Below, piece after piece: positions 6,360 through 61,857 of a stretch of 64,000 nucleotides of DNA (its first letter is position 1; each line of letters opens with the position of its first letter). The notes under the pieces are model-generated. The model was not told where the DNA came from. It did not search any database and saw only the letters and a list, made by a program, of their open reading frames with translations. This stretch comes from a virus: positions 19,117 through 83,116 of IMG/VR virus record IMGVR_UViG_3300024496_000030; one strand, 5' to 3'. The translations under genes were made by a program, and so were the position numbers.

Positions 6360-7327
6360 GCACGGAATGCGCTGCGTGCTTGACTATAATCCTTCTCCTC
6401 TCTATAGCGACGATAGAGTTCCTGTTGCAGTTCGGTTTCCCGCTGTTCTTGAGCTTGCTTGCCAACAGTCAAACGTTCTTCTGCACCCGTTAATCCAATC
6501 TGACGTTCTTGACCGGCAAGCAATTCAGATTGTGTTTTACGTTGCTCTCCACCTGTTAAACCGATTTGACGCTCTGCACTTTCAGAAGCAAGACGTTGAG
6601 TTTCAATCTGACCACGCGTTGATTCGGTGGCAGCAAAACGTGTGGCGCCAGCAGATTGTTCAGAAGCATATTTAGTTGCTTCTGCTTGTGCTTGAGCACC
6701 TTGCAGGTTAAATTCACCCAAACGCTCGTTGGATTTGTTTTCGAGCATCTGCTCATCCAAGCGATATTGACCCTCTAGCTCATTAAAGGTTTCTGCTTGG
6801 GAAGAACCAAGCACATCCATAATGCTGCCAAAGACGCTTTCAATATCGCCAAGATCAACAAAAGTGCCTGCAGGTGTTTTTGTTATTTGGGTTTTACCAC
6901 CATCTTTGCCTTTTCCATCTTTACCTTTATCTTTACCTTTTAAACTAATCGTGCCACTTTGAATGCCTTGCTTTAGAAGATCTTTACCTTGGCTGCCAAA
7001 CTTTTGAATTAACTGATCTTTTTCTTTAGGACTAATTGTAGATCCAAGACCAGATAGGAAAGTCTGTGCTTTTTGAATTGAAGTTTTTTGAGTACCGCCA
7101 CCAGACTTTGGCGTGCCAGAACTGGACGCTTTAGGCACACCGCCTGCTGGTGTTGGTTTTGGGGCAGAGCTAGAAGGCCCTGTGCGCGGTGCCGTTGGGG
7201 TTGTTGCCCGCGCTGTTGATGCAGCAGGAGCGGGCGGGGGAGACGGACGTGGTGCTGACGGTGGAGATCCACCTCCACTCCGTGCACCGCTGCCACCTTT
7301 GGATCCGCCACCTCCTTTTGCTGCCAT
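6356..7327 (-). CDS. Low-complexity virion-type protein with internal repeats
   Basis: A 323-aa protein. The first 95 residues are Gly/Ser/Pro/Thr-rich and disordered. Residues 130-160 are Lys/Gly-rich. The C-terminal half is an Ala/Gln/Glu coiled coil with an imperfect repeat (ERQIGLTGGEQRKTQ and ERQIGLTGAEERLT). It ends in SAFRA. Not recognised. On the minus strand TATAAT near 7358 could be a -10 element for this gene. A virion interior protein is plausible. Confidence 0.6.
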   Translation of the reverse strand: MAAKGGGGSKGGSGARSGGGSPPSAPRPSPPPAPAASTARATTPTAPRTGPSSSAPKPTPAGGVPKASSSGTPKSGGGTQKTSIQKAQTFLSGLGSTISPKEKDQLIQKFGSQGKDLLKQGIQSGTISLKGKDKGKDGKGKDGGKTQITKTPAGTFVDLGDIESVFGSIMDVLGSSQAETFNELEGQYRLDEQMLENKSNERLGEFNLQGAQAQAEATKYASEQSAGATRFAATESTRGQIETQRLASESAERQIGLTGGEQRKTQSELLAGQERQIGLTGAEERLTVGKQAQEQRETELQQELYRRYREEKDYSQARSAFRA

Positions 7328-7370
7328 GAAAAATCCTGTTTAAACTGCTTTAACTATTATAGAGTTGTTA

Positions 7371-7952
7371 TCAACGACGATAACGGAAAGGCTCAACCGT
7401 TGCACGCTTGAGATCACCAAATGCACGACGCTTTTCAGCTTGTGCAGATGCTGCTAAACCAAGTTGTTGTTGCATCGACAGGTTGCGTGCAGCTTGAGCA
7501 GTAGGAGATAACTCCTTCGTTTCAAAAGCTTGCATCTGACGATTCAGCTCCTGGTTGCGCATGTACTCTGTGAAGGGGAGTGATGCAGCACCAAACGCTG
7601 TAGCAGCGCCAAGGTTTAAAACGTTTTGCTTAGCTTCTGACTCCAGGAGATCTTGTTGTAGTGCTCTGGATAATTCCTTATAAGCATCTACATTTAAACC
7701 AGTTGGAGACAAATCCTGTGCACCAGCAACAGAAGGTGGTTGCGCAAAATATTGAAAAGGTTTGGCAACATCGCCAATTGTCTTTTTATATTCTTCTAAA
7801 GCAAGATCAATCGTTTTGCCAGTATTAAAATCAATTCCTTTGTATTTACCAAAAGCAGCTTTTAATTTATCAAGATCAATTTTATTACTAGCCGTTGCTC
7901 CAAAATAATTTGGTGTCGTGGACTGATAAAAGCTGTTGAAATCTTGAGGCAT
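7371..7952 (-). CDS. Unknown late protein
   Basis: A 193-aa protein, Ala/Gln/Leu-rich and probably helical in its C-terminal half, ending in PFRYRR. A strong ribosome site (AGGAGGGG about eight bases before the ATG) supports the start. Not recognised; context suggests a virion protein. Confidence 0.6.
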   Translation of the reverse strand: MPQDFNSFYQSTTPNYFGATASNKIDLDKLKAAFGKYKGIDFNTGKTIDLALEEYKKTIGDVAKPFQYFAQPPSVAGAQDLSPTGLNVDAYKELSRALQQDLLESEAKQNVLNLGAATAFGAASLPFTEYMRNQELNRQMQAFETKELSPTAQAARNLSMQQQLGLAASAQAEKRRAFGDLKRATVEPFRYRR

Positions 7953-46605: not shown

Positions 46606-49221
46606 GTGACGACCGCTACTCCAGAACCCAAGCCCCCGCATAAGCATCTGTCTCCAGGTCAGATCAATCTCGATCTGATTCCGGTTGATTTTCCCCTAAC
46701 TCCCTTGCAGGGGAAGAAAGCTTATCTTCCTGGCTGGACTAGCGACCCCAAAACCGTCAGTGAAATCCGTAAAGAATTAGAAGAAGGCAGGGCAACGGGT
46801 GTTGGTTTGCTCTGCGGACAGTGGAGTAATGACCTTGCTCTGATTTTTGTTGATGTGGATGGAGAAGATGCCATCCCCGTCATTGAAGAGCTGGGTGGTG
46901 GTCCAATTGATGAAATCTTTCCTCCCACACTGACCATTACCAGTGGGAAACCTGGGAAATTTCGCATGTTATTTCGGGTGCCGCCAGAGCGCATCCAACA
47001 ACTGCCCGATAAAGCAACCATTAAAGTTGATAAGGCGCCATGGGAAATCCTTTGGAGATCCCGTCAAGGTGCATTGATGGGTGCACACCCTGATACAGCC
47101 GGATATTCCACAACAGCGCACGGTGGTTTTGAATATGCCAAGCGCCTACCGGAAATGCCGGAATGGTTATATGAAGCCATTGCCCGTGCATATCCCAGTA
47201 GCCGTTACCGGAAACGGAACTCTCCAGCTGGTGCTGTCGTTACCCAAAGCATCACGCTGAACTACGACACAGACTCGAAATATCACCAGGAAACTGTTGT
47301 AGCAGAAGCCCTTGAGTACCTGTCCGCACTATCGGAAGAACGGGCTGATGATTATGAAGAGTGGCTTGCAGTTGGCATGTCACTCCACCAAATTGATGAA
47401 TCCTTACTAGAAGCGTGGATTGAATGGTCCGCTCAGTCCGATCAATTTGAAGACGGTGCGTGTGAGCGCAAGTGGTCTAGCTTTGAGCGGCTGCCTGGTG
47501 GACCAAACCCTGATGGCGCCAGGGGTCTGAAAACGCTTCGGGCTAAAGCAAAGGAAGATGGTTACATTGATATGGGAGGCTTTGTTGTTCCTTCCATTGA
47601 TACCATCAGGAAACGTGCTGCCATGGATGACGACGGCACCGTTGAACATGATGAGGGCAACCTATTTGCTGAACTGTTTGGTGGTGTTGCACTGCCAGAC
47701 GATCTTTTCGGTGAGGATGGTGAGCTAGATCTGGTACGGATTCCTGGTCAACCGTCCTTGCCAGGTGGGAAGAAGCAGAAAGGAGCAACCCGTAATCCGC
47801 CTGCTTCTGAGATTGCTAACTTCATCTCACCCATGTTCAACAAAAATGGGTGGCGATATGACCCTAGATTTGATAGGTTTATGAAATATGACCGCCAACG
47901 CGGTGTATGGAATGAGCAAGATCATACGAAAGATTTTAAGCATGAGGTGCAATTTGTCCTCGGAAACACTTCTCTCCCTGGCGGGTACACTTCTCATCTC
48001 GTTAATGATGTGTGTGCTCTGCTGGAGGGGCACCTCACCGAATACCAATGGAATGACGATCCCTCCCGTCTTGCATTCCGTAACGGTGTCTACGATCTGG
48101 ACACCAAGGAATTCCTAGAGCACAACCCTGATCACTTCATCATCTGGGGTCTAGACATTGATTACATCCCAGAGGCTGATCCCGGTCCCATTACCGAGTG
48201 GCTCTACCGCACGCAATATGGTGATGAGGCCAGGGTTAATGTGCTGCGGGCTTGGCTCCGTGCCTGCTTAGTGGGGCGTGGTAATGAAATCCAGCGCTTT
48301 TTTGAAGTGATCGGCCCAGGTGGTCGGGGTAAATCGACCTTTGCCAACCTCTGCTGTGCTCTTGTTGGTAGCGGGAACTACGCCAGTACTACCCTCAACC
48401 AGCTGGAGCAAAGCCGCTTTGAGCTGTCCTCCATCAAGGGCAAGCGCCTGACGCTAATCAATGATTCGGAGCGTTACGGCGGTTCTGCCCAGACCTTCAA
48501 GGCACTGACCGGTGGTGACTCCCTGCGCTATGAGGAAAAGCTCAAGCCCATCGGTGAACCATTTGTGTACACCGGCATGGTCATGGTAGTTGCTAACGAG
48601 CCCATTCAGACAACGGATAACACCAGTGGTTTGAGCCGCCGCCGCTTAACAATTGAGTTCAATAGGCCCTTATATGAGCGCAATAGTGAAGCCAAGGACA
48701 TGATCAAGATTGAACATGGCCGGGTGTCAGGTCTCTGGAAGGACTACCTGCCCGGTCTGGTCAACTGGGTTATGGAGATGGATGAACAAACCATGCGTCA
48801 GTACCTGCTTGACACCAATGAAATGGTGCCAGCACTGCGCCGCGTTCGTAATAACATCCTCCTCAACAGCAATAACCTGATTGAATGGCTGCAATCAGAA
48901 GTGGTGCAAGCTGATCACGTCACTGCTGTTGGTAAGAAGATTCCGAACGGCAATAAAGAAACCAATGAGCGCTATGTCAATAGCAACTACCACCTCTATC
49001 CCAGCTACTGCGAATACTGTGACGCCACGGGATCGAAAGCTGTGGGTCAGAAACGATTTATCAACCTGCTACTGGATTGCTGCAAGAACCAATTAGGTCT
49101 TGATGAGGTCCGTACCTTTAGTAAAGGTGGCAAACCCTTTGTCAAAGGACTTGCTATCCGTAACTCCGATCAGAAATTTAAAGATCTACCGACAATCCTT
49201 CCAGAAGGAAAAGAAGAGTAA
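46606..49221 (+). CDS. Primase-helicase (Prim-Pol plus D5/SF3 helicase)
   Basis: An 871-aa protein from GTG. N-terminus: a Prim-Pol-like domain (about 20-190), with LIFVDVDGED and ITSGKPGKFRMLF. Middle: a linker rich in Pro/Gly/Asp and a D5-N-type region (about 395-540: FRNGVYDLDTKEF). C-terminus: SF3/D5 helicase with Walker A GPGGRGKSTF (about 570-579) and arginine-rich ends. It primes and unwinds DNA for the family A polymerase. The gene ends at a bidirectional terminator. Confidence 0.88.
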   Translation: MTTATPEPKPPHKHLSPGQINLDLIPVDFPLTPLQGKKAYLPGWTSDPKTVSEIRKELEEGRATGVGLLCGQWSNDLALIFVDVDGEDAIPVIEELGGGPIDEIFPPTLTITSGKPGKFRMLFRVPPERIQQLPDKATIKVDKAPWEILWRSRQGALMGAHPDTAGYSTTAHGGFEYAKRLPEMPEWLYEAIARAYPSSRYRKRNSPAGAVVTQSITLNYDTDSKYHQETVVAEALEYLSALSEERADDYEEWLAVGMSLHQIDESLLEAWIEWSAQSDQFEDGACERKWSSFERLPGGPNPDGARGLKTLRAKAKEDGYIDMGGFVVPSIDTIRKRAAMDDDGTVEHDEGNLFAELFGGVALPDDLFGEDGELDLVRIPGQPSLPGGKKQKGATRNPPASEIANFISPMFNKNGWRYDPRFDRFMKYDRQRGVWNEQDHTKDFKHEVQFVLGNTSLPGGYTSHLVNDVCALLEGHLTEYQWNDDPSRLAFRNGVYDLDTKEFLEHNPDHFIIWGLDIDYIPEADPGPITEWLYRTQYGDEARVNVLRAWLRACLVGRGNEIQRFFEVIGPGGRGKSTFANLCCALVGSGNYASTTLNQLEQSRFELSSIKGKRLTLINDSERYGGSAQTFKALTGGDSLRYEEKLKPIGEPFVYTGMVMVVANEPIQTTDNTSGLSRRRLTIEFNRPLYERNSEAKDMIKIEHGRVSGLWKDYLPGLVNWVMEMDEQTMRQYLLDTNEMVPALRRVRNNILLNSNNLIEWLQSEVVQADHVTAVGKKIPNGNKETNERYVNSNYHLYPSYCEYCDATGSKAVGQKRFINLLLDCCKNQLGLDEVRTFSKGGKPFVKGLAIRNSDQKFKDLPTILPEGKEE

Positions 49222-51600: not shown

Positions 51601-51792
51601 ATGCAAGTTATTCAAACCTTTCCAAAGGGTACCACTATTGAATTGGGTGAAGATCAACACAACAATCAGGTGCACAGAGTTTGTACACCAGGTGGATCCA
51701 TGTGTCGCTACGTTGAACCTTACCATTGTGCGTTGACGTACGCTGAGCAGTTCGAGGAATGGTACCCTCATGCTCCCCAAGACCTAGAGTAA
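51601..51792 (+). CDS. Small protein of unknown function
   Basis: A 63-aa protein (MQVIQTFPKGTTIELGEDQH) with His/Cys/Tyr residues. Its 3' end overlaps the convergent gene at 51768 by 25 nt. Not recognised. Confidence 0.5.
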   Translation: MQVIQTFPKGTTIELGEDQHNNQVHRVCTPGGSMCRYVEPYHCALTYAEQFEEWYPHAPQDLE

Positions 51793-52100
51793 AAAGCTTT
51801 TTGTTTCCTTTCAGTTAGGAATAAGTTGCTAAAGCAGAGGTTTAACCTGTTTAAATCTCTAAATCCGATATGCAAATTGCCTGGATCTTGTTCTGTTGCT
51901 AGTCTCCAGGCAATTCTTTCTGCTGGAAATATACCATTGGCAACAAAAACTCTGTATTTTGCTACACCACCACGGTGATCTAGCTTGGTTGCAGGTTGCA
52001 AAGTCTCCTTATCTAGGAGCAGACCTTTATTTTGGTCATAAATTAGCTCTTTTTGGATAGTAGAAGCCTCAGGAAGTTTCAAATAGAAGTGACTTGCCAA
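51768..52100 (-). CDS. Degenerate HNH homing-endonuclease-like protein
   Basis: A 110-aa protein, apparently from TTG 52100. YDQNKGLLLDKET, KYRVFVANGIFPAERIAWRL and LHIGFRDLNRLNLCFSNL follow the layout of HNH homing proteins (a pattern like GYRVV-N-RFxAHRIAWxL...IDHxNxxxxDNRxxNL), but the expected His residues are Glu and Phe/Arg. It is probably catalytically dead or a repurposed DNA-binding protein. Confidence 0.45.
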   Translation of the reverse strand: MASHFYLKLPEASTIQKELIYDQNKGLLLDKETLQPATKLDHRGGVAKYRVFVANGIFPAERIAWRLATEQDPGNLHIGFRDLNRLNLCFSNLFLTERKQKAFYSRSWGA

Positions 52101-52157
52101 GTTGGGGAAAGCAAATGTACTACTTAGGATTGCCCGTAAACCGTTGTCCCGCAGTCA

Positions 52158-52381
52158 CTTTGCTCCAGGGGGCAAAGGAACGGACGTTTTCAGCAGTTAT
52201 TTCCGCTATTACCTACGGCGTGGCGTTTTAGCTGTTCTAAAGTGTCCGTCATAAGTACGGGTGCTTGGAACGGATACATTAGAACAGCTAGCTACCGGTA
52301 TCTAAAGATATATAGGGATTTAAGAGCAAAAGCGTCCGTTCTTTTGTCAATCCTTAAAATCCCTTGACTCGCAAGGGATTT
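52158..52381. other. Palindromic locus with nested hairpins and AACGGA repeats
   Basis: Part of a 319-nt gap between divergent genes. Outer stem: 52173-52186 with 52333-52346, 14 pairs. Inner stem: 52229-52249 with 52270-52290, 21 positions with one mismatch and one G-U. A CTTTGC/GCAAAG stem (52158-52177) competes with the outer stem. A third stem AAATCCCTTG/CAAGGGATTT lies at 52357-52381. GGAACGGA or its complement recurs four times. Could be a structured RNA, an origin-like element or a small non-autonomous mobile element. Confidence 0.55.
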
Positions 52382-52419
52382 GACCCTATCCTCAAGGTGT
52401 TCCAAAAACCTCCCCTACT

Positions 52420-52926
52420 GTGGACTACCTGCAGTTTTTCAGAGATGAATACCTAACAGAACAAGATCTCGTTGCTTTTGCTACTACTCTCAAGCTGTGT
52501 CAAGATGGAATCGGATTGAGTCCATGCTGGTGCTTGAAGAAACTGGACCACCCTGGCCTCAAACACTTCTCTACATCGCACCGATTCCGTCCCCAGTTCA
52601 AAGGACGGGATGCCAGGCTGCTGGCACTGGCCCTGGTGAATCAGTTCATGCCAGAGGAGGGGGCAGTGGTGGTGCGTAAACACACCTGTCAATCACAGCA
52701 CTGCATCAACCCGTCTCACTACTACTTTGGAACGTTGAAAGATGTGAAGCTAGAGCACGCCAAGAGAAAAGGAATCAATATCAATCCAGCAATGGTCACA
52801 GAAATCCGGTCCAAGCGTGAGTCTGATAAGACTACGTGGACATATCAGAAGTTGGGCAAGTTCTACAAACTCCCCTACCATGTCATCAGACGCATCTGCA
52901 CGGAGAACGCTTACGCCAATGGCTAA
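52420..52926 (+). CDS. HNH/His-Me-finger homing-type endonuclease
   Basis: A 168-aa protein from GTG. VVVRKHTCQSQHCINPSHYYFGT is the zinc loop and active-site region of homing His-Me nucleases (H-x-C...C-x-N-P-x-H). The C-terminus (TWTYQKLGKFYKLPYHVIRR) looks like a helix-turn-helix for site recognition. It overlaps the next gene by 8 nt. Directly preceded by the palindromic locus. Confidence 0.65.
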   Translation: MDYLQFFRDEYLTEQDLVAFATTLKLCQDGIGLSPCWCLKKLDHPGLKHFSTSHRFRPQFKGRDARLLALALVNQFMPEEGAVVVRKHTCQSQHCINPSHYYFGTLKDVKLEHAKRKGININPAMVTEIRSKRESDKTTWTYQKLGKFYKLPYHVIRRICTENAYANG

Positions 52927-53530
52927 CCTTGATGGCATCCTCAGTGAAAACCTGGATTCAATCCTGAAGCCTGATAATAAATTTGAGAACCAGGTCAAGA
53001 AGATCCATCAAGAGACTGCTAATAAGTACTGCCTCTGGCACCGCAACGGCGAGCCCACTCATTGGAACAACTTTGGACTCATGGGAGAATGTCGAGATTG
53101 CTTAGCAGAGATCCACAGAGGGCGCTGCACTGTTGATGTTTGTAACTTTGAACTGGATACCTACTGGACAGTTCGGAACTTCTGGCTAAAGGTGGATATC
53201 AAAGGACCAAATGAGTGCTGGCCTTGGATGGGAGCAACGCGGCGCAACAACCAAGAGACTGTTGCGTACATGCCAAGCCCCTTTCATTCCGCCAAAACAC
53301 AGTCCGCCTCCAGGGTTGCCTTCTGGTTATCACGTGGTTACACAGGGAAATACCGCGTATTCCATCAAGAAGGTTGTGATGTTCTGTGCTGCAACCCACT
53401 GCATCTGCGTATAAAGGAGTTAGCATCAGTACCTCAGCCCACTGAGATCACGACCATAAATCTGAGCTATGGCAACATCTTCGACCGAGCAAAAACCAAT
53501 GCAGAAGCGGAGTCAGGTACTCCCGAGTAA
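52919..53530 (+). CDS. HNH/His-Me-finger homing-type endonuclease
   Basis: A 203-aa protein from ATG 52919. A Cys/His cluster (residues about 38-66: YCLWHRNGEP, GECRDCLAE) precedes an HNH-like domain: GPNECWPWMGATRRNN, SASRVAFWLSRGYTG, FHQEGCDVLCCNPLHLRI. The same C-x-N-P-x-H core as the previous gene suggests a related enzyme. Overlaps both neighbours. Confidence 0.6.
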   Translation: MANLDGILSENLDSILKPDNKFENQVKKIHQETANKYCLWHRNGEPTHWNNFGLMGECRDCLAEIHRGRCTVDVCNFELDTYWTVRNFWLKVDIKGPNECWPWMGATRRNNQETVAYMPSPFHSAKTQSASRVAFWLSRGYTGKYRVFHQEGCDVLCCNPLHLRIKELASVPQPTEITTINLSYGNIFDRAKTNAEAESGTPE

Positions 53531-54501: not shown

Positions 54502-54705
54502 ATGAAAACTGTTACTCTCAAAGAATTTGAGCTTAACTTCGATGTTTTCATGGATGACATCATTGAAAACAACCGCCACTATAAGATTACTTATGGTGAC
54601 GGTAAAGCTGTCATGATGGTTCCTTATACTGAATATGATCTACTTCTAAACACTTATCAAGACTGGATCGAAGAAACTAAAAGCTCGATTGAAGAAAGCT
54701 TTTAG
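54502..54705 (+). CDS. Phd/YefM-like antitoxin
   Basis: A 67-aa protein. MKTVTLKEFELNFDVFMDDI, HYKITYGDGKAVMMVPYTEY and DLLLNTYQDWIEETKSS follow the Phd/YefM fold: N-terminal strand-helix, a K-I-T...G-K-A-V-M-V-P hairpin, then helices. Such antitoxins bind operator DNA and neutralise RelE/Doc-like toxins. No toxin gene is adjacent, and it has its own promoter candidate. Its stop abuts that of the convergent gene. Confidence 0.7.
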   Translation: MKTVTLKEFELNFDVFMDDIIENNRHYKITYGDGKAVMMVPYTEYDLLLNTYQDWIEETKSSIEESF

Positions 54706-61636: not shown

Positions 61637-61705
61637 GAGCGGTTCATGATTCCTAACATCAGGTTAGGGTGCACAAACCTGTACTACCTGCTAAGCTGCT
61701 GGAGT

Positions 61706-61780
61706 GCCCGGATAGCCCAATCGGAAGCAGGCAAGCGATTTAAAATCGCTACAGTGAGGGTTCAAATCCCTCTCCGGGTA
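61706..61780 (+). tRNA. tRNA-Leu (anticodon TAA), class I variable loop
   Basis: Acceptor GCCCGGA/TCCGGGT with discriminator A; anticodon stem AGCGA/TCGCT with loop TTTAAAA (anticodon TAA); T arm GAGGG-TTCAAAT-CCCTC. The variable loop is only five bases (ACAGT), whereas bacterial tRNA-Leu normally has a long variable arm. CCA is not encoded. Plus strand, opposite to the surrounding late genes. CCTAAC/GTTAGG and CAGGTT/AACCTG dyads lie upstream. Confidence 0.8.
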
Positions 61781-61783
61781 TAA

Positions 61784-61857
61784 CGGGATATAGCGCAGCT
61801 TGGAAGCGTGCCTGATTTGGGTTCAGGAGGTCGCAGGTTCAAATCCTGCTATCCCGA
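61784..61857 (+). tRNA. tRNA-Pro (anticodon TGG)
   Basis: Acceptor CGGGATA/TATCCCG, discriminator A; anticodon stem CCTGA/TCAGG with loop TTTGGGT (TGG); T arm GCAGG-TTCAAAT-CCTGC. Three bases after the preceding tRNA, so both are probably one transcript. The 3' end abuts the stop of the minus-strand gene at 61858. Confidence 0.88.

Follow-up and report, generated by a model that had tools for sequence, protein, structure and literature searches.

Directly upstream of two nuclease-type genes in a cyanophage genome lies a nest of inverted repeats, and the question it raises is what such a structure does there. The original prediction had read it as nested stems with AACGGA repeats and had placed three possibilities side by side, namely an endonuclease recognition or operator site, a structured RNA, or a small mobile element that the nucleases would mobilise, with a competing pairing that could act as a switch. 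A switch or operator role emerges from the present analysis, too, as the likeliest kind of function. The specific reading that we prefer, tentatively and as quite possible rather than probable, takes the locus as a conserved leader, acting in cis, through which S-EIV1-like cyanophages would control a two-protein His-Cys-box/HTH operon by translational silencing.

The window, by which we mean the whole 64,000-nucleotide stretch analysed (bases 19117–83116 of an 83,116-bp IMG/VR record), derives from an S-EIV1-like cyanophage. Over 98% of its length, the primase-helicase (46606–49221) is 36% identical to the primase of Synechococcus phage S-EIV1, and about ten further genes of the window also match S-EIV1. 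Outside the locus, the window carries a gene for a Phd-like antitoxin (54502–54705; phrog_375, E 1.5e-14) and, at 61705–61857, a tandem tRNA-Leu(taa) and tRNA-Pro(tgg), which is retained in relatives.

Relatives of the locus were collected with two scans, one with the 190-aa neighbour and the other with an alignment of 168-aa homologues. Each yielded 80 loci, on partly overlapping contigs, and removal of near-duplicates left 60 upstream regions. The locus itself, used as a query, gave no match in the phage collection, and pattern scans of viral contigs returned no exact match, with a gapped pattern recovering near-identical sisters only. Close sisters are 86% identical in DNA to the window, and four contigs are identical to one another at the locus. 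A long inverted-repeat rod was found at the same place in about 60 non-redundant relatives of freshwater and marine origin, upstream of a pair of genes for 168-aa and 203-aa proteins, and the order 63-aa gene, rod, 168-aa, 203-aa, 113-aa and 225-aa gene was kept in nearly all loci with sufficient upstream DNA. The 63-aa gene occupies positions 51601–51792 (+ strand) of the window, and in most relatives a homologue is the immediate upstream neighbour of the element. The isolate S-EIV1 also carries the rod, upstream of a 203-type gene: with G·U pairs forbidden, its top structured segment genome-wide lies directly upstream of the 225-aa homologue of the 203-aa protein. This arrangement recurs in six of the eight closest S-EIV1 relatives (L176, L177, L178, L181, L182 and L183) and in L068; coding sequence occupies the rod position in L179, L180 and L083. 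The element is conserved clade-wide, beyond what the original prediction had seen, and the proposed linkage to nuclease-type genes held, with the 168/203-aa pair downstream of the element in nearly every relative. The degenerate HNH gene on the other flank (51768–52100, minus strand), which had been noted as flanking the locus, proved to be an insertion in the window only; it was found in no close relative, and the close sisters retain the rod without it.

From the outside inwards, the element nests an outermost inverted repeat (P0), the outer stem of the rod (P1), a conserved core and a hypervariable apical hairpin (P3). On the + strand, P1 pairs 52173–52190 with 52329–52346 (18 nt, 89%), and P3 pairs an ascending arm at 52229–52258 with a descending arm at 52261–52290 (30 nt, 80%), which together form the longest close inverted repeat within the window. 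P3 differs in length and sequence between phages. The 3′ strand of the core, CTAAAGATATATAGGG (52302–52317, + strand), corresponds to a clade consensus of about CTATAARRATAAAAAGGGG, with a 5′ strand of about GGGNTNTTTNNNCTTAG (both consensuses drawn by eye), and recurs in all groups, including the S-EIV1 type. A perfect 10-bp hairpin or palindrome spans 52357–52381 (arms 52357–52366 and 52372–52381). The nested stems and the 10-bp hairpin were thus correctly placed from the start. Of the four copies predicted for GGAACGGA or its complement, two are exact (52177 and 52267), a third is the complement with a single mismatch (52335) and the fourth is poor; the AACGGA repeats are not general among relatives. 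The competing stem (52158–52163 with 52172–52177, CTTTGC/GCAAAG) does exist in the window but is absent from the 86%-identical sister, and its proposed role as the switch is not supported.

The + strand of the locus folds at −103.6 kcal/mol, compared with −61.7 kcal/mol for shuffles (z −9.9; − strand z −5.8). With G·U pairs forbidden, it comes only about 14th when its own genome is divided into 2765 overlapping segments, so the high z of the window copy derives partly from wobble pairs and flanks. The upstream regions of most relatives fold well, with z as low as −14.9 (L046), and folding is weak in L016, L043, L146 and L161. In class C rods, which have 44 consensus pairs, 92.4% of cells were paired, compared with 79.0 ± 1.0% when shuffled and 37–51% when slid, and 85 cells carried a double change, compared with 33.6 ± 4.2 in shuffles. 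The arms are hypervariable, yet their pairing is retained through compensatory changes, as had been anticipated; the outcome named beforehand as adverse, conservation as ordinary sequence with no HNH linkage in relatives, did not occur. Upstream of its HNH gene, L068 carries 29-bp perfect arms along with a third, partial descending arm. This suggests renewal of the arms through inverted duplication, a process that would yield perfect pairing without wobble intermediates.

Two features that the original prediction lacked, P0 and a conserved promoter inside it, are new here. P0 joins AGTTGGGGA at 52100–52108 to TCCCCTACT at 52411–52419 (both + strand), the latter being the stretch of leader that immediately precedes the GTG start of the 168-aa gene, with eight of nine positions complementary. 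In relatives, the equivalent upstream site covaries with the leader: complementarity averaged 7.22 bp within a phage and 6.05 ± 0.16 bp when leaders were swapped between phages (maximum 6.53 of 300). P0 reaches 14 bp in L061, 12 in L055 and 11 in L173. Between the D and E groups, the leader change from CCCCTATC to ACCCTATC is matched by a change in the upstream P0 arm. The leader of S-EIV1 nearly repeats one rod arm (24 nt, 92%), so that the other rod arm is antisense to the leader.

The promoter is sigma70-like by consensus match (TTGACT-N17-TATCCT, 52364–52392, + strand) and is directed into the 168-aa gene. Most non-marine relatives have TTGAC-N17/18-TA, likewise a consensus match only, about 51–83 nt before the start and between P1 and the leader; marine copies lack it. 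The −35 element is overlapped by the 10-bp hairpin. Over it lies the palindrome TCCCTTGNNNNNCAAGGGA (52360–52378), which is unique within the window and recurs in L098, where it precedes the rod. A second copy of the promoter ahead of the rod was considered, at a consistent position and with weak scores, and is not claimed. In several lineages (L025 at 6531, L030 at 211, L055 at 307, and equivalents), the upstream P0 arm adjoins GTACNNNNGTAC/GTTC, which we take to be a LexA-like box from the cyanobacterial consensus. This box is intact at the equivalent place in L012, L025, L026, L030, L031 and L048–L061. Its counterpart in the window (52108–52121) is degenerate, and LexA control of the element, with the box intact in several lineages only, is kept as a lead rather than adopted. 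Beside the degenerate box, the start codon of the HNH_3-type degenerate gene abuts the P0 arm.

In the proposed mechanism, the 5′ P0 arm of transcripts reading through from upstream would pair with the leader before the 168-aa start, and the compact rod of P1–P3 between the P0 arms would aid closure, leaving that start hidden. Transcripts begun at the internal promoter would lack the 5′ arm, and from these the 168-aa gene would be translated, so that expression may be timed in this way. The rod would have to fold while its sequence stayed free, which would explain its hypervariability, and new arms would arise by inverted duplication. The predicted mean unpaired probability of the leader was 0.33 in read-through RNA and 0.66 in promoter-started RNA, with the read-through value lower in 35 of 42 cases, and 0.43 when the upstream part was shuffled (p 0.007, a value that ignores phylogeny). 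Several points tell against this mechanism: for the window alone the predicted difference is slight (0.34, 0.50 and 0.39, respectively), the TTGAC promoter is missing from marine copies, and the leader is C-rich (CCCCTAC), with no purine-rich ribosome-binding site in positions 52400–52419. The silencing leader is taken as the most likely reading on account of the predicted accessibility and the precedent of T4-type phages.

The proteins downstream bear on how else the repeats might be read. The 168-aa protein (52420–52926, + strand) was assigned from its motif and predicted structure to an I-PpoI-like His-Cys-box type with a C-terminal HTH. The window copy contains the H-x-C-x4-C-x-N-P-x-H motif shared with I-PpoI, and C90, C95, N97, P98 and H100 are invariant in 16 relatives. 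The catalytic histidine identified by motif (H88, corresponding to I-PpoI H98) is present in the window, and its position is S, F, Y or A in L025, L039, L043, L044, L045, L046, L055 and L061. The structural model (pLDDT 90.6) found in I-PpoI (PDB 1a74, 1evw) its best interpretable fold match, which is weak (TM ~0.35, E ~0.2), and differs from it in the extra C-terminal HTH and in that the catalytic histidine is not conserved in relatives. A PDB sequence search gave no useful match, and no relatives of the protein were found in the bacterial genomes of the searched set. Its C-terminal part (52751–52906) weakly matches mitochondrial ribosomal protein L20 (PF12824, E 0.001, below the cut-off; PDB mL58), probably through a shared helical shape. 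The 203-aa His-Me/Cys-rich protein (52919–53530, + strand), the partner of the 168-aa protein, gave no fold match when modelled, and the equivalent histidine is replaced in marine copies. In L048 and L055–L062, the two genes are fused into one encoding a single 374–376-aa protein. With the zinc ligands and N-P-x-H retained and the catalytic histidine often lost, DNA binding seems, from these sequences, to be more conserved than cutting. In the S-EIV1 record KJ410740.1 (L010), the annotation (7027–7467) leaves out about 237 bases of the HNH/203-like ORF at 7030–7704 on the minus strand, and the + strand CDSs 7462–7563 and 7576–7725, which overlap its 5′ part, look spurious.

Such proteins could also read the repeats as DNA. 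In this explanation, which we consider possible though somewhat unlikely, the nested repeats would serve, in double-stranded or cruciform form, as an operator or autorepression site and possibly as a nuclease target, bound most likely by the 168/203-aa proteins. It is made a serious rival by the rod mismatches. A rod kept as RNA should show far more G·U than A·C on one strand, and the G·T and A·C mismatches were nearly balanced, with 34 and 30 distinct contexts (9 and 12 in strong helices), 53 and 45 alignment columns, and 15 and 9 between sisters, whereas the tRNAs of the same contigs gave 28 and 0 (ARAGORN brackets may hide A·C). Class C alone, the best alignment, had a mild G·T excess (17 and 11 columns), which, like that between sisters, is a weak excess on the + strand and tells against a DNA element. 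Folding energies were lower on the + than on the − strand by 6.3 kcal/mol on average, and z-scores were about equal on both strands, so that composition is the likelier cause. The unique palindrome over the −35, the I-PpoI-like fold with its HTH, and the loss of the catalytic histidine with zinc ligands retained also fit a DNA element, and I-TevI of T4-type phages offers a precedent, as it represses its own late promoter by operator binding (PMC2988022). Against it, the arms lack a sequence motif common to all copies, repeated 9-mers, except in L129, do not generally exceed a random-palindrome null, and P0 stops exactly at the start codon, which fits RNA better. A more specific form, in our view unlikely, would be a sequence-free palindromic element, present clade-wide, with strand-symmetric pairing as a cruciform or hairpin, renewed by inverted duplication and recognised as an operator by structure rather than sequence by a domesticated, often catalytically dead His-Cys-box pair. 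The silencing leader and a DNA operator or cruciform may also hold together.

Strong folding of the + strand, the conserved core and, in the D and E groups, an apical loop complementary to the leader would also suit a structured non-coding RNA that is released from the rod and acts in trans, as a 6S-like decoy, an antisense RNA or similar. We regard this as improbable, given that wobble bias is nearly absent and that a separate small RNA would lack a clear promoter or terminator. The rod resembles 6S RNA (RF00013) in its length of about 180 nt and differs in having no large open central bubble; the 6S model gave no match here, whereas it did in controls. Rfam searches at gathering and permissive thresholds matched no family and returned only sub-threshold hits of miRNA type and similar. 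A group I or II intron and a known riboswitch or ribozyme were likewise set aside for want of an Rfam match, as was a HEARO/OMEGA RNA with IscB/IsrB, whose RuvC-HNH protein is absent among the neighbours.

Less probable still is a replication origin or single-strand initiation site, that is, a structure-conserved hairpin downstream of the P4-like primase gene. The order primase, few genes, rod and HNH is common to the window and S-EIV1, and the rod presumably resembles single-strand origins. However, the GC skew shows no clear turn at the locus and gave no signal of an origin; no replication gene adjoins the rod; and the repeats show no general iteron excess over the random-palindrome null, so that iterons were also discarded as a general principle. 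A small MITE- or REP-like element mobilised by the nucleases, already disfavoured and now very improbable, would account for the inverted repeats beside nuclease-type neighbours and for a second short hairpin with apical-hairpin sequence at the upstream divergent promoter of the marine copy L149 (~2593–2645), but the element sits at the same place in all relatives and is single-copy in its own genome, neither an empty site nor a target duplication was found, and relatives of the 168-aa protein are absent from the bacterial genomes searched.

No element of this kind in S-EIV1-like phages was found in the literature searched, and it is apparently undescribed, although the closest kind, the T4-type leaders, is already known. 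It would represent a deeply conserved regulatory element in cyanophages that are widespread in both freshwater and the sea and of which one isolate, S-EIV1, is available, and it offers a clear test case for whether a fold is kept as RNA or as DNA while its sequence turns over fast. In addition, nucleases of the homing type would here have become a fixed pair of genes, with catalysis seemingly lost in many lineages.

Among known systems, the I-TevI operator resembles this locus in that a palindrome or operator-like sequence covers the promoter that serves a DNA-binding nuclease-type gene; here, the site is putative, and its repeats are far longer and nested. The silencing leader finds its closest counterpart in T4-type phages, in which I-TevI, I-TevII, I-TevIII, segB and mobE, and likewise soc and e of T4, lie under hairpins that sequester the ribosome-binding site and contain an internal late promoter (PMC2988022). 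In both, the inverted repeat that covers the start of a nuclease-type gene cannot form in short transcripts; here, the upstream pairing is borne out by P0 covariation, and the internal promoter by a consensus match outside the marine group. The arms of P0 differ in lying about 300 nt apart around a large rod whose pairing is nearly strand-symmetric, and the genes, rather than being mobile, form a pair fixed throughout the clade. As P0 abuts the start itself and sequesters no Shine-Dalgarno site, the leader is said to work like the T4-type class rather than to be a member of it.
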